Under the pieces are notes generated by a model that worked only from the letters and a program-made list of their open reading frames with translations, searched no databases and had not been told where the DNA came from. The translations under genes and the position numbers were made by a program. Shown here one piece after another: positions 10,244-37,608 of a stretch of 37,608 bases of DNA. Numbering within the stretch: the stretch's first letter is position 1; each line of letters starts with the position of its first letter. The DNA comes from an uncultured Rikenellaceae bacterium (GTDB lineage Bacteria; Bacteroidota; Bacteroidia; Bacteroidales; Rikenellaceae), in NCBI GenBank assembly GCA_947054185.1, contig CAMRVW010000003.1, positions 1 through 37,608 of the forward strand. The letters run 5' to 3'.

Positions 10244-10840
10244 GTGATTTCGCGACCCGGCTGCCGGAGGGCTATGTGGCTTGACGTGAAGGAGCCACAG
10301 ACCGAGACTGCCAACCCGAAACAGGCATCGGGCGGCGCCACCTTTGCCACCAAACTGCCGTCACAGTGCAGCGGTACTCGTGCGGAGTCACACGGTAAGT
10401 TCTATCAGTGGGGCATCAATGTGGCATGGAACACCACAGGGTCATCGGCCGCAGGTGCCACCCCGAGCGGGTCTTGGAGTTCGAGCTATCCATCTAACTG
10501 GAACACCCATCCCTGTCCCGATGGTTACCGTCTGCCGACCGATACAGAGTTCCGGAACCTGATAAACAGCAGTACCGTCAGTCGAGGCGGCGGGTGGAGC
10601 AGCTCCGATTATGGCTATATCAAGTTCACCTCAGGCTCTAATTCAGTTGAGTTTCCAGCTGTCGGTTACCGCGACGATAGTACGTCCGGTACGTTACGCG
10701 AGGCGGGTACGGACGGATACTATTGGTCTGCATTTGCACTCACTTATTACGGCGTGTCAGATTTGTGCTTCAATAGCAGCGGTTTGTACGTGGGTGGCGG
10801 CGATAAAGCTGACGGCCATAGCGTGCGTTGTGTCCGCTAA
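10244..10840 (+). pseudogene. C-terminal FISUMP-type (Fib_succ_major paralogous) domain fragment, no signal peptide
   Basis: CPDGYRLPTDTEFRNLI...GYYWSAF...GHSVRCVR* matches the FISUMP C-terminal pattern. N-terminus lacks a signal peptide and starts with GTG just after an in-frame stop. Confidence 0.65.
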
Positions 10841-10871
10841 ATATTAATACTTTGGTCCTTTGATTTCTTTG

Positions 10872-11387: not shown

Positions 11388-11406
11388 CAAAGAACCAAAG
11401 AATTAA

Positions 11407-11693
11407 TCATTGGCGGACACAACGCACGCTCCGACCGTGCTGCTTGTCATAGTGACTCGCTTTCAAATTTCCGCTATCGAAGTGGACCCCGTGTGTGCTG
11501 ATAGAACTGGCTGCAACAGATGACCAATAGACGCCGCGTGTGCCCGCATATGTCAACGCACCTGACGAATAGTTGCGCCAACCGACAGCTGTAAACTCCA
11601 ACTTCTTGGAACTATCTGTTTTTAGTGTCAAGGTGATATAACCATAGTCTGATGATGTCCATCCCCCGCGCCATCTTTTACCGCCCAGCCCTT
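11407..11693 (-). pseudogene. Truncated FISUMP-type C-terminal domain fragment, 5' end cut by R1 copy 2
   Basis: Minus-strand frame reads WRGGWTSSDYGYITLTLKTDSSKKLEFTAVGWR...GVYWSSVAASS...HGRSVRCVRQ*; similarity stops where R1 units begin at about 11693. Confidence 0.65.
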
Positions 11694-12000
11694 ATTGTTT
11701 GCTGCACTGCCTCATTTTTGTCTGCCGTATTGCCCCACACCCTTCCCGCGAGAGCCATGGCCCATGTTTTGATATACTTTAGGAATCAGCCCCAAAGGCC
11801 AAAAACGTCTGAGTCATAAATGTGTAAGACGCATGTCGAAACACATTTATGACTCAGACGTACTTATTCCTTAGTTGTTTCTCAATATTCTCAAAACGGG
11901 GTCCGTGACCCCTCCCCCGGAAGGGCCGCCGGAGGCAGTTTCAGCAATACAAAAACGGCAGTTCCGGCAAAAACGGCAGTCCCCGCAAACCAACACGGCG
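11690..12000 (-). repeat. Composite structured element R1, copy 2
   Basis: Core 11750-11940 nearly identical to 300-488; hp1 at 11805-11825/11841-11861; hp2 at 11898-11912; ~22-bp unit array running to the lacZ-like stop codon. Confidence 0.85.
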
Positions 12001-22813: not shown

Positions 22814-23393
22814 TTCACCAGTCACCTGCCTGCCGCACTCACCACGGCGGCATCGGTTGCGTCATTCGAATCTCATCATGTCGGTCGGATGAAATAGTCG
22901 TTCGGCCATATATCCGACTCCACGGTTCCTTGATGAATGGGGTACGTCGCTGTTGCGGTGGCGCCCCCCGGGGGGCGTAAAAATATTCGGGTTTTGTTTC
23001 AGGGAAAGAGGTTGATTGTTAGGTGGTTGGATGGAGGAGTGAGGCTGTTTTGTATGGAGCGGCAGACTGATATTTGAAGTACCCATGCCCGGGAACGATT
23101 TCGGAGAAAAGAGTCTCAACCGGAAGATGTTCTCATTGACATTCGGTTTTAAGCTTGTATGGGTTGATTATCTCGATGTGGCAATTTTTAGTCTCAAATC
23201 TGTATTTTGCTGCCTGAAGATAGGGCAATATTTCATATTTTATCGTAACTTTGTCAAGCACGGCATACAAGGGTTCTTCTTTATGAATGTTTTTAAGCAG
23301 TGTGCTGTAACTTAATATTTTAAGTGTTTGTTTAAGGGCTCGGAATAAGGTTGAATCACATCAAAGTGCATAGTCATCATTAATCATTTCACA

Positions 23394-25154: not shown

Positions 25155-25413
25155 ACTTTTTTTTGTATGGAATTGATGGATTTCAAGAGAGTTACTGCTT
25201 TTGAAGTAAAGACTAATTCCAGGGAAAATCAGCGTTTTGCTGTTGAAAGATAGGGCTATATTTCATATTTTATTGTAACTTTGTCAGGTACAGTGCACAT
25301 AGGTTTCTCCTTTAATATAGGGCATAATCTTGAACGTACGCTGTTTGTTGGCATTTTAATCGCTTATTTAAATAACTCAAGATAAGGTTAAATTACTTCA
25401 TTTTATAACCACA

Positions 25414-32989: not shown

Positions 32990-33285
32990 TCATGCGATGG
33001 GTTGCCGCACTGTCTCGTTTGTGTCTGTTGCAATGTCACGCACTCTTGCCGCAAGCGGTCATGCCCATGTTTGAATGTCATTTTGGCATCACCTTCCGGG
33101 GCCAAAAACGGATAACCCATAAATGTGTAAGACTTTTGTCGAAACACATTTATGGGTTATCCGTAATTATCCTTAGTTTGTCCTCAATATCTCAGAAAGG
33201 GGTTCGTAACCCCTCCCTCGGGAGGGCCGCCGCAGGCAGTTCCCACAAACCTTAAACGGCAGTTTCTGCAATATTAAGAGGCGGT
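32990..33285 (-). repeat. Composite structured element R1, copy 3 (diverged)
   Basis: hp1 at 33108-33128/33144-33164 with altered but perfectly paired stem; hp2 ggggttcgtaacccc at 33199-33213; flanking ~22-bp units; ends just 3' of the pckA stop. Confidence 0.85.
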
Positions 33286-33288
33286 TGA

Positions 33289-34896
33289 TTAGAGCTTGGG
33301 CCCTGCCGCAACGAGTTTTTTGCCCTCTTCGTTGGTGGTGTACTTCTCGAAGTTTTTGATGAATCGGCCTGCGAGATCTTTAGCCTTGGCATCCCACTGT
33401 GAGGCGTCGGCGTAAGTGTCTCTGGGGTCGAGGATGGCGGGGTCGACACCGGGCAACGATGTGGGCACCGTGAAGTTGAAATAGGGTATGCTCTTGGTGG
33501 CAGCCTTGTCTATCGAACCGTCGAGTATGGCGTCGATTATGCCGCGGGTGTCTTTGATGGAAATACGCTTGCCGGTACCGTTCCAGCCGGTGTTGACAAG
33601 GTAAGCCTTGGCGCCCGATTTCTGCATCTTCTTAACGAGCTCTTCTGCATACTTGGTGGGGTGCAGCGAGAGGAACGCCGCGCCGAAGCAAGCCGAGAAT
33701 GTGGGTGTGGGCTCGGTGATGCCGCGCTCGGTACCTGCCAGTTTGGCGGTGAAGCCAGAGAGGAAGTAATATTTGGTCTGCTCGGGATCGAGTATAGAAA
33801 CCGGAGGAAGCACACCGAAAGCGTCTGCCGACAGGAAGATGACCTGTTTTGCGGCGGGAGCCTTGGAGATGGGCTTGACGATGTTGTCGATGTGATAGAT
33901 GGGGTAAGAGACGCGGGTGTTCTCGGTGACGCTCTTGTCGGCGAAGTCTATCTTGCCGGCAGCATCCACGGTGACGTTCTCCAAGAGGGCGTCGCGGCGG
34001 ATGGCCTTATAGATATCGGGCTCGGCCTCTGCGCTGAGGTTGATGACCTTGGCATAGCATCCGCCCTCGAAGTTGAAGACGCCCTCATCGTCCCAGCCGT
34101 GCTCGTCGTCGCCTATGAGCATGCGTTTGGGGTCGGTTGAGAGGGTGGTCTTGCCGGTGCCTGACAGACCGAAGAAGATGGCAGTGCTTTCGCCCTTGGT
34201 GTCGGTGTTGGCAGAGCAGTGCATAGAGGCGATGCCTTTGAGGGGCAACAGATAGTTCATGTATGAGAACATGCCTTTCTTCATCTCGCCGCCATACCAT
34301 GTGTTGATGATGACCTGTATCTTCTCTGTGAGGTTGAACACAACGGCTGTCTCTGAGTTGAGACCGAGCTCTTTATAGTTCTCGACCTTGGCTTTAGAGG
34401 CGTTCATCACCACGAAGTCGGGCTCGCCGTAACCTGCCAGCTCTTCGGCCGTGGGACGTATGAACATGTTGGTGACGAAGTGAGCCTGCCATGCCACCTC
34501 CATGATGAAACGCACCTTTATGCGGGTGTTCTGGTTGGCACCGCAGAAGGTGTCGACAACATAGAGCTTTTTGCCTGAGAGCTCTTTCTGTGCAATCTCC
34601 TTAACCGCGTTCCAGCATTTGGCGTCGACGGGTTTGTTGTCGTTTTTGTATGACTCTGATGTCCACCATACGGTGTCTTTGGTGGTGTCGTCGAGAACGA
34701 AGAATTTATCTTTGGGCGAGCGACCGGTGTAAACGCCTGTCATGACGTTGACGGCGCCCAGCTCGGTGAGCTGACCCTTCTCGAAACCCTCTAAAGAGCT
34801 GTCGGTCTCTGCCTTGAAAAGCTCGTCGTAAGAGGGGTTGTGAATAATCTCTTTGACACCGGTAATGCCGTATTTGCTCAAATCGATTGTTGCCAT
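33289..34896 (-). CDS. pckA: Phosphoenolpyruvate carboxykinase (ATP)
   Basis: MHCSANTD...[45 protein letters not shown]; start [17 protein letters not shown] at 34896. Confidence 0.96.
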
Positions 34897-35015: not shown

Positions 35016-35174
35016 CAAAGATACGAATAAGCGAGGGTAAAAGCAAGTTCACTTGCATTTTGCCGAGCGGGAGTATCTAAGACCGACAGGTCAAAGATAC
35101 GATTAAGCCGGGAGGCAAGCAAATTTTATTTGTTTGTCCGAGGCGAAGTATCTAAGACCGACAGGTCAAAGATA
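35016..35174 (-). promoter_or_regulatory. Tandem promoter/palindrome repeat upstream of pckA
   Basis: Two exact copies of tatctaagaccgacaggtcaaagata (35074-35099, 35149-35174), 75 bp apart. Minus-strand TATCTTTG boxes at 35016-35023 and 35092-35099 each have TTG/TTTG exactly 20 bp upstream. Confidence 0.75.
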
Positions 35175-35283
35175 CGAAAATTTTATTTATTGTTAATAAA
35201 ATCACACTTATTTTTGTTTCCAAATGGCGTTGTTTGTGTTTATGTGTGTAATATTCAGGATGTTGCTGTCATGTGTGCGCCTG

Positions 35284-35321
35284 CAAAAACAAAGCCGCAT
35301 CCGGGCATGTGCGGGTGCGGC
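35284..35321 (-). terminator. Probable intrinsic terminator downstream of plsY
   Basis: Minus strand gccgcaccc...ggatgcggc followed by tttgttttt. Confidence 0.65.
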
Positions 35322-35343
35322 ATGATATGTATCGGGTGTGCGG

Positions 35344-35982
35344 TTATTCTTTGTTTTTCTTTTTAACGAGGTATATTTTCGATTCCGTGCCCGAGAGGAG
35401 GCGTTTGATGTTTCGCCTGTGGGTGAAAATGAGCATTATGGCCACGACAATGCCGAAGATGACCATTTTAGAGTCGGCATGCCACAAGACAAGCATCACG
35501 GGGAATGATATGCCGCCCAATATGGAGCCGAGCGACACGTAATGGCTCACCGCCAGCACCACCATGAACACCCCGAAAGCCAAAAGCGTGGGCACCGTTG
35601 CCAGAGCCACCATTGTGCCGGCTATCGTGGCGACGCCCTTGCCCCCTTTGAAGCCGGCGAAGATGGGGAATATGTGTCCCATGACGGCCGCCACGGTGAG
35701 AGCCATTCGCAGTACGAACAACTCGGTGCTTCCCTCGGCATAGCCGTTGAAGTCTGTTGCGATGAGCGACAGTTTGACGGCTGCAAACCCTTTGAGGAAG
35801 TCTATTGCAAACACCGGAAGCGCCGCCTTTCGCCCCAACACGCGCAATGTGTTGGTGGCTCCTGCATTATGGCTGCCGTGTTCGCGCACGTCGATGCCGT
35901 AAAAACGTTTGCCTATCCATACCGAGCTGGGTATCGAACCCAAAAGGTAACCTGTTATTACCAATATTATGTTCAGAGCCAT
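35344..35982 (-). CDS. plsY: Glycerol-3-phosphate acyltransferase PlsY
   Basis: GYLLGSIPSSVWIGK, REHGSHNAGATNTLRVLG, GHIFPIFAGFKGGKGVATIAG. Confidence 0.95.
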   Translation of the reverse strand: MALNIILVITGYLLGSIPSSVWIGKRFYGIDVREHGSHNAGATNTLRVLGRKAALPVFAIDFLKGFAAVKLSLIATDFNGYAEGSTELFVLRMALTVAAVMGHIFPIFAGFKGGKGVATIAGTMVALATVPTLLAFGVFMVVLAVSHYVSLGSILGGISFPVMLVLWHADSKMVIFGIVVAIMLIFTHRRNIKRLLSGTESKIYLVKKKNKE

Positions 35983-36111
35983 TTGTAATCTTTTCTACAA
36001 AGATATTAACGTTTAAGTTCAAATCAAAATCTGCCCCGCTTCATGTGAGCCATGCCGGGGTGGCGTGTCGCTCTCAAAAGGGCTGTACTGCGGTGTTTGA
36101 AGAGGTGATGT

Positions 36112-37311
36112 CTATGCCGACAGCGCCTCTTTCCCGGCCTCTCTGCCGTAAATTTTAAGCGACATCCGTTTTACGATCACCACGAAGAAGCCCGTGAGTA
36201 TGAGATTGAAAACGATTGTCAGCAACGATATGATGAGCAACGGTCCGCCCAGGCCGTAACCTATGGCTATGAATATTATGCCGGCACCCACCTCTCCTCG
36301 CGTGAACATGCCTATGGAGAGGGCCAGTCGCTCGAGCAACGGACGGTCGCGATAGAAGAATACCGGTATCAGCTTGCCTATGTTGGAGAGGGCCGTGACC
36401 ACCACCACGTGCAGGGCTATGGTGCCCCAGCTCATGTGCGGGATGGCTGCCGTCACCTTGTCTGATATGACAGGCTCTATATCCATGCCCACGAAAAGAG
36501 GTGTGCTAAGCCCCACCAGCAGCATGAACAGATATGATATGCCGCCCGATATTTTGTGCTCCAACCCGGTCTCGGTGTGATGCGAGGTGTGCATTATCAT
36601 GCCTAACACGAAGGCAGGCAGAAGCACCTCTATGTGTATGGCGCTGTCGACGCCGAACCTGTGTTTGGTGAATATGTAAAGGCCCTGGCAGAACGCCACC
36701 AGTGCGACGGAATATATCAGCAGCGCCCACCAGTTTTGGTTGAAACGGTGTCTTTTGAGTCGTTTCCATCCCAGAAACAGCAGCGATATCACCACCACCA
36801 ATATGACGAGCAGTTGCCACTTGAGGCCTATCATCATGATCTGCAACGGTATCATGAGCAATATGGTGTCGAGGTCGTCGAAGATGGCCAGCACCTGCGT
36901 CTTTTTGTATATCCATTTACCCGCAAGGCCGGCGCCGGCGAGCATGGTGAAGAGGATGCCCGCCGAGGTGGGGGCTGCAAAACGGCTCAGAAGCAGGTTT
37001 TCTTTCCAGGCGTTCCAGTCGGCGAACGATCCCTCGGGCATCAGCCACATATAGTAAACGGCAATGAGAAGCCAGGGAGCCGCCGCCGTGGCCATGGCAA
37101 TGAAATAATCGGCCGTGTAACTGCGCCAGCGGCTCTTGTCTAACTCGAACTCGCGACCCACTCCTATCATTATATAGGCAAGGCACACGAACAAAAGGGT
37201 GTCGGTGACATGCTTGAAACCGGCGTAATGAGAGCCTAACTCTGTCGGTATGATTTGAGAAAATACCAGACCGACAATAAGGAAAATTGAAAACAGTACT
37301 ATTTTTTTCAC
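36112..37311 (-). CDS. Cation/proton antiporter (CPA-type sodium/hydrogen exchanger)
   Basis: 399 aa, about 12 TM; FAAPTSAGILFTMLAGAGL, AIFDDLDTILLMIP, GMFTRGEVGAGIIFIAIGYGL. Confidence 0.85.
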   Translation of the reverse strand: MKKIVLFSIFLIVGLVFSQIIPTELGSHYAGFKHVTDTLLFVCLAYIMIGVGREFELDKSRWRSYTADYFIAMATAAAPWLLIAVYYMWLMPEGSFADWNAWKENLLLSRFAAPTSAGILFTMLAGAGLAGKWIYKKTQVLAIFDDLDTILLMIPLQIMMIGLKWQLLVILVVVISLLFLGWKRLKRHRFNQNWWALLIYSVALVAFCQGLYIFTKHRFGVDSAIHIEVLLPAFVLGMIMHTSHHTETGLEHKISGGISYLFMLLVGLSTPLFVGMDIEPVISDKVTAAIPHMSWGTIALHVVVVTALSNIGKLIPVFFYRDRPLLERLALSIGMFTRGEVGAGIIFIAIGYGLGGPLLIISLLTIVFNLILTGFFVVIVKRMSLKIYGREAGKEALSA

Positions 37312-37489
37312 GCAAGAAAATTTATGTCCGGCAAAGATAGGGTTTTTCCCCTATCTATCAATATCGACGGGCTAATTATGTGTAAATCTTTTCGTTGTAC
37401 GTTGCGGTTTTCAGTGGTTAAATGGGGGGGCGGAGCTTTGGGCTTTTCGGTATGCTGCGGGCACGGTGTGTCGCAAGAGAGATATTTAT

Positions 37490-37608
37490 TATCTTTAGTC
37501 TGATGGTCTAAGATACTTCCGCTCGGCAAAATGCAAGCACACTTGCTTTTGCGCTCGCTTATTCGTATCGTTGACCTGACGGTCTTAGATACTCTCGCTC
37601 GGCAAAAT
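37490..37608 (+). promoter_or_regulatory. Inverted copies of the promoter/palindrome repeat at window edge
   Basis: tatctttagtctgatggtctaagata (37490-37515) and tatcgttgacctgacggtcttagata (37566-37591), 76 bp apart. TTG (37543-37545) lies 20 bp upstream of TATCGTTG (37566-37573). Confidence 0.7.

Follow-up and report, generated by a model that had tools for sequence, protein, structure and literature searches.

The DNA upstream of pckA contains a short tandem repeat whose palindrome overlaps a putative -7 promoter box, and variants of the same repeat recur inverted at the end of the contig. These observations raise the question of what the repeat is and how it came to lie in a promoter. The stretch that was analysed (the window) is the entire contig C3 of genome G000, 37608 bp in length; the genome is a 2.0-Mb draft, 84% complete and 0.08% contaminated.

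Anatomy and distribution of the repeat

The 26-mer TATCTAAGACCGACAGGTCAAAGATA occurs exactly twice, 75 bp apart (35074-35099 and 35149-35174), and inverted variants 76 bp apart lie at 37490-37515 (three mismatches) and 37566-37591 (one mismatch). Together, these four matches compare with 0.01 expected in the window by chance. The preliminary description of this DNA, which reported these copies, was right that the 26-bp sequence is repeated, but the sequence is not the unit: it is the junction of a linker hairpin with the octamer of the next unit. The true unit is ~75 bp long (73-78 bp) and comprises the octamer CAAAGATA (TATCTTTG on the other strand) and a ~67-bp core with two hairpins. In gene sense, the order is linker hairpin, main hairpin, CGCTTATTCG or GGCTTATTCG, and then TATCTTTG. 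Two subtypes, A and B, are intermixed inside arrays. Similarly, the promoter boxes noted within the 26-mers are there, but the gene-proximal box lies outside them, and the copies said to mark the window's edge are present but are merely a second array cut by the contig end, whose gene would fall beyond 37608. The octamers of this second array are off the -7 consensus, reading TATCGTTG at 37566-37573 (internal) and TATCTTTA at 37490-37497 (distal). The two arrays share a larger repeat pair, an 84-nt inverted repeat at 35016-35099 and 37490-37573 (85%). The features of the window are as follows.

33289-34896, minus strand: pckA, encoding ATP-dependent phosphoenolpyruvate carboxykinase and served by the array (PF01293, E 1.3e-203)
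35016-35091, minus strand (gene sense): gene-proximal unit (unit 1), subtype A, with octamer, main hairpin and linker hairpin (alignment; 69.0 bits, model R1)
35016-35023, minus strand: proximal octamer TATCTTTG, predicted to act as the pckA -7 box; it fits TAnnTTTG, and empty orthologues have TATATTTG here
35036-35064, no strand assigned: main hairpin of unit 1, one arm of which has a single-base bulge (ssDNA z -3.58; covariation)
35044-35046, minus strand: TTG in an arm of the main hairpin, predicted to be the -33 box and lying 20 nt upstream of the proximal octamer (unit and native spacing)
35074-35099, no strand assigned: linker hairpin plus octamer, first copy of the 26-bp palindrome (exact match)
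35092-35166, minus strand: second, distal unit (unit 2), subtype B (alignment; 75.5 bits)
35092-35099, minus strand: internal octamer TATCTTTG at the junction of units 1 and 2 (sequence)
35116-35136, no strand assigned: main hairpin of unit 2, limits approximate (z -4.09)
35120-35123, minus strand: TTTG of unit 2, 20 nt upstream of the octamer at 35092-35099 (sequence)
35149-35174, no strand assigned: linker hairpin plus octamer, second copy of the 26-bp palindrome (exact match)
35167-35174, minus strand: distal octamer TATCTTTG, adjoining the native upstream flank, which reads GTGATTTTATTAACAATAAATAAAATTTTCG / TATCTTTG / ACC
35175-35211, minus strand: native upstream flank of the pckA promoter, displaced ~150 bp by the array (matches the empty sites of G001 and G003)
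35344-35982, minus strand: plsY-type glycerol-3-phosphate acyltransferase, the upstream neighbour (PF02660)
37490-37608, plus strand: second array, in opposite orientation, cut by the contig end (70.5 bits for 37490-37573)

The repeat in the window is one array of a genome-wide dispersed family. A profile search of the fetched regions of G000 yielded 136 units in 49 arrays of one to six units each; BLASTN gave 77 matches and a pattern search 89, with 0 for the reversed-pattern control. According to a covariance model, the family is patchy within the order, being found in 15 of 196 sampled genomes. The carriers span more than ten families and usually hold several copies per genome. The closest named carriers are Rikenellaceae, such as Alistipes and Tidjanibacter, and the cultured carriers include Heminiphilus faecis AM35 and Alistipes muris DSM 112343. 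Loci from the search that gave the closest named carriers were retrieved with a pattern that contains the octamer, which inflates their apparent conservation; comparison within G000 is less biased. No known Rfam family matched the pckA array, and a text search of open-licence papers returned nothing matching the motif or such Bacteroidales repeats. Searches for carriage by mobile replicons gave 0 in IMG/VR and 0 in plasmids, together with two unannotated 'Bacteriophage sp.' records.

The window holds further repeats of other kinds. Another dispersed family occurs at 244-566, 11694-11992 and 32997-33271, with a perfect hairpin (ACGTCTGAGTCATAAATGTGT), a GC-rich block (GGGGTCCGTGACCCCTCCCCCGGAAGGGCCGCCGGAGGCAGT) and 22-nt tandem repeats (AAACGGCAATTCCCGCAAATCA); the GC-rich block also adjoins arrays on other contigs (L073, L086 and L098). 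An 87-nt repeat with TAACTTTG, 77% identical between 23196-23282 and 25226-25312, lies upstream of neighbouring genes and may represent duplicated promoters. Finally, a 95-nt imperfect inverted repeat (10768-10862 and 11388-11482, 525 nt apart) occupies a stretch with few convincing genes.

The hairpins covary

In 41 diverse units, the 21 stem pairs were formed in 92% of cells. Compensatory cells numbered 80 in these units; shuffling gave 28.7, with 0 of 500 shuffles reaching 80, and slid controls gave no more than 20. The linker stem occurs as GACC/GGTC, AACC/GGTT, GGC/GCC or GAC/GTC. The main stem occurs in numerous unrelated sequences, and one of its arms invariably has an additional base. 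When the hairpins of the pckA array were folded as ssDNA, z was about -3.6 and -4.1 on that strand. Divergent members of the family keep CAAAnnTA with the nn altered, as in CAAATATA and CAAAGTTA, and the outer stem changes to match; distant members with a matched outer stem include CAAATATAC..GTATAT and CAAAGTTAC..GTAATTT. Such matched changes are expected of an octamer constrained both to remain a -7 box and to base-pair with the core. As transcription is predicted to start downstream of the array, these hairpins would be missing from the transcript of the gene. The simplest inference is that they would act as folded DNA during movement.

The terminal inverted repeats of a MITE of the DDE type are absent, the core ends CGAATAAGC and GGCGAAGC not being inverted copies. 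Nor are the arrays CRISPR-like: whole units are homologous, and their variable part is a covarying hairpin rather than a set of unrelated spacers. A search for an autonomous, longer copy with an ORF found only composite hairpin variants, at L189 (~3219), L199 (minus strand, 917) and L227 (minus strand, 5121); these lack a reading frame and carry an additional GC-rich hairpin in nested position.

The units carry promoter signals in a fixed position

Bacteroidetes promoters have the -7 consensus TAnnTTTG with TTTG near -33 (PMC7366714), the -7 box spanning -12 to -5 (PMC9723704). In gene sense, TATCTTTG is a perfect -7 box. The TTG noted earlier 20 nt upstream of TATCTTTG was borne out, being found at exactly this distance in 78 of 85 units genome-wide and in both subtypes; at a spacing of 19-21 nt it is present in 25/26 proximal and 56/59 internal units. 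Native TAnnTTTG boxes, scored upstream of genes in the same sequences with the elements removed, have TTG peaks at 20 nt (40/274) and 19 nt (21/274) over a background of ~5 per position. The spacing in the unit is also the one preferred by native promoters, which we take as the best sequence evidence for a real promoter in the unit. Overall, the units have the Bacteroidetes sigma-A pattern of TAnnTTTG with TTTG or TTG ~20 nt upstream.

The proposal that the repeat supplies promoters in series holds in part. The -7 consensus is intact in 24 of 26 proximal octamers (a degenerate unit and a spurious match account for the other two), compared with only 25 of 59 internal octamers (p 1e-5). These data indicate that usually only the proximal unit looks functional.

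Genes start at the octamer side of the arrays and run away from it in 30/30 arrays of G000 and 89/90 elsewhere, according to a retrained gene caller. Thus, 119 of 120 arrays lie directly upstream of a gene in one orientation, which supports the earlier suggestion of dispersed units bearing promoter boxes and is opposite to the outcome named there as refuting it, copies mostly at non-promoter positions. The gene start is most often 18-30 nt from the octamer, and the far side of the arrays is mixed (48 '+' and 52 '-'). Some '+' neighbours called in other genomes were rejected as shadow ORFs, as the proteins there read as the starts of MetG, DnaG, GalE, YchF, HutI and SerB. Element octamers had a gene start no more than 300 nt downstream in 147/151 cases, versus 59/80 for native intergenic TATCTTTG (Fisher 1e-7), so the octamer alone is not enough to explain polarity and position. 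Besides pckA, the genes served presumably include ispF, argS, purM, murI, trkA and nfo, named from protein sequence. Four features suggest that the units function as promoters: their spacing, their polarity, the preferential retention of the consensus in the proximal box, and the decayed remnants described below.

Empty sites and array growth

Pieces of 17 neighbouring genes were concatenated into a single query, which located the orthologous regions in three species of the genus. Array-free orthologues have a -7 box at the corresponding place at ispF, trkA, ntrC, L075, L065 and pckA. At a few loci (pckA and ntrC), the empty site could be recovered with both flanks, and in these the box is at both ends of the insert. 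At pckA, the empty site of G001 reads GTGATTTTGTTAACAATAAAAATTTTTTCA / TATATTTG / TATCGGAG, and the filled site of G000 reads GTGATTTTATTAACAATAAATAAAATTTTCG / TATCTTTG / ACC(array)CG / TATCTTTG / TAATCGGAG, the proximal TATCTTTG continuing straight into the native leader. At ispF, the filled CGCTTATTCG / TATCTTTGCAGATATG corresponds to the empty TTTTTTTTGC / TATCTTTGCAGATATG. At trkA, filled and empty sites alike continue into TATCTTTGAACGTTAAT, and the distal edge is at the TA of the box. At both pckA and L065, empty orthologues have TATATTTG and filled ones TATCTTTG; the octamers at the two ends may be a duplicated target, but such variants suggest that the octamer may instead be borne by the element.

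At ntrC, G001 and G002 have no array and those of G000 and G003 are of different unit types, a pattern suggestive of two insertions. The sequence upstream of G003 ntrC (L307) holds a species-specific unit type, an apparent parallel insertion relative to G000. Two loci, L073 and L086, each have one decayed unit in G002 that matches the most distal G000 unit, indicating that the newer units lie between that unit and the gene; precisely TTTG-20 nt-TATCTTTG is what survives of the unit in G002. The argS array of G000 is ~50 nt downstream of the former promoter, whose -7 box is decayed in G000 and intact in G001. Entry ~50 nt from the old box indicates that targeting is not absolute. Distal-most units score below proximal ones (47 versus 61.5 bits, p 3e-4), and the nearest relative of a unit is in the same array for only 28 of 108 units, being in another array for the other 80. 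Together, the empty sites, decayed remnants, distal scores and unit kinship fit insertion at the proximal box followed by decay of older units.

A probable mobile repeat, proposed to rebuild promoters

Most probably, the repeat is a short, non-autonomous mobile element of Bacteroidales that inserts at -7 boxes and rebuilds the promoter of the adjacent gene. Both its mobility and its targeting of pre-existing -7 boxes were missed by the preliminary description. The element would insert, in one orientation, at an existing TAnnTTTG box and leave a -7 octamer at each end. The native -33 region would be pushed away and the unit would bring its own (TTG or TTTG 20 bp upstream), such that the promoter of the downstream gene would be rebuilt from element sequence and would drive its transcription. 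Further units would enter at the gene-proximal octamer, so that arrays of one to six units would grow from the gene side as distal units decay. The mobile form is probably a single-stranded hairpin, moved by an enzyme that would act in trans. More tentatively, we propose as a possibility that this enzyme is a novel recombinase acting on the single-stranded, bulged hairpin, targeting TAnnTTTG and adding units gene-proximally.

Four other explanations were considered. An element of the REP/BIME kind, moved as a single-stranded hairpin by a RAYT (Y1/HUH) transposase and found at promoters as a by-product, would have the short hairpins, constant one-arm bulge, high copy number and tandem mosaics seen here, and the Bacteroidetes TnpA_REP subclass 2.6 is flanked by atypical structures (PMC6006769). 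We nevertheless consider it unlikely: PF01797 is absent from G000 and from the carriers G002, G003, G018, G021, G064, G163, G037, G132, G140 and G230, and many PF01797-negative carriers are 99% complete. At the Y1 loci examined (L272 and L331-L336), no true element adjoined the gene, there being only loose matches without unit structure, and inspection of 69 distinct units revealed no GTAG/CGTC tag. To our knowledge, moreover, REPs do not occur at -7 boxes with fixed polarity. Somewhat less likely still is the earlier proposal of a dimeric regulator that would bind the palindrome as its operator, overlapping the -7 box, with the arrays forming a regulon. The 26-bp junction is indeed palindromic and recurs upstream of many genes, but the palindrome exists only at unit-unit junctions, its right half being absent at the very box predicted to be active. 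Its inner stem varies with pairing kept (GACC/GGTC, AACC/GGTT and GGC/GCC), which fits folding and not base-specific recognition. Furthermore, the genes served are unrelated housekeeping genes, and close species lack the repeat at these same genes.

We consider it highly improbable that the units are not mobile and arose by local promoter duplication, through slippage or unequal crossing-over, and were kept since strong promoters are useful. Tandem arrays are what this process would produce, and a same-array nearest relative for 28/108 units is above chance; however, most nearest relatives are in other arrays, array-free orthologues have single-copy promoters, the ntrC unit types differ between two species while two others are empty, and single-unit loci carry unit sequence close to copies elsewhere. 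An equally improbable role is that of a terminator or insulator blocking read-through into the promoters. Strong covarying hairpins between genes would suit it, but the pckA array has no terminator-like site (a stem with a T run), and divergent upstream genes are as frequent as co-directional ones, so that there is often nothing to terminate.

If the tentative recombinase proposal holds, the arrays would be a directional record of insertions, and Bacteroidales promoters would be continually replaced by element-borne ones, decayed units leaving just TTTG-20-TATCTTTG. A mobile repeat that restores its target box would explain how the element persists at housekeeping genes without killing them, would provide a direct route for the birth and replacement of promoters in gut Bacteroidales, and points to an undiscovered recombinase. 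In the open-licence literature, we found no described mobile repeat that targets and restores a core promoter box.

Comparison with known systems

The element has partial counterparts among known repeats. Mobile promoters (Matus-Garcia 2012 and van Passel 2014, cited in PMC8049555) are reportedly repeated sequences that give promoters to unrelated genes and are defined by sequence repetition. The present repeats likewise appear to furnish promoters to unrelated genes, but they differ in having a promoter box as target, precise empty sites and a structured unit. Mycobacterial MIRUs are interspersed tandem units of ~50-100 bp with fixed polarity that enter overlapping stop/start codons (DTGA). 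They share with the present repeat the tandem, interspersed units, the fixed polarity and a gene signal as target, which here is the -7 promoter box. The palindromic elements derived from IS200/IS605 (PATEs) have bulged hairpins and insert site-specifically beside a short target repeated at the element end. Insertion beside a short target echoed by the element end, and bulged hairpins, are common to both; in contrast to PATEs, no Y1 transposase was found in many carriers of the repeat, and the architecture is different.

The BrickBuilt MITE of Porphyromonas gingivalis has 23-nt repeats, IS5-type terminal inverted repeats and bidirectional promoters, with variable or no target duplication, and is confined to Porphyromonas (PMC4596501). 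Like the present repeat, it is an intergenic mobile element of Bacteroidales with tandem repeats, promoter elements and no transposase of its own; the present repeat differs in its ~75-nt hairpin units, lack of terminal inverted repeats, fixed polarity and -7 box target. The REP, BIME and REPIN sequences associated with RAYTs (PMC2817692, PMC3116915, PMC6006769) resemble it in being short, non-autonomous hairpins of conserved structure that occur at high copy number and in tandem mosaics. By contrast, most carriers of the repeat described here are without a Y1 transposase, its units lie in a single orientation at the core promoter, and the TAnnTTTG octamer stands in place of the GTAG tag of REPs.
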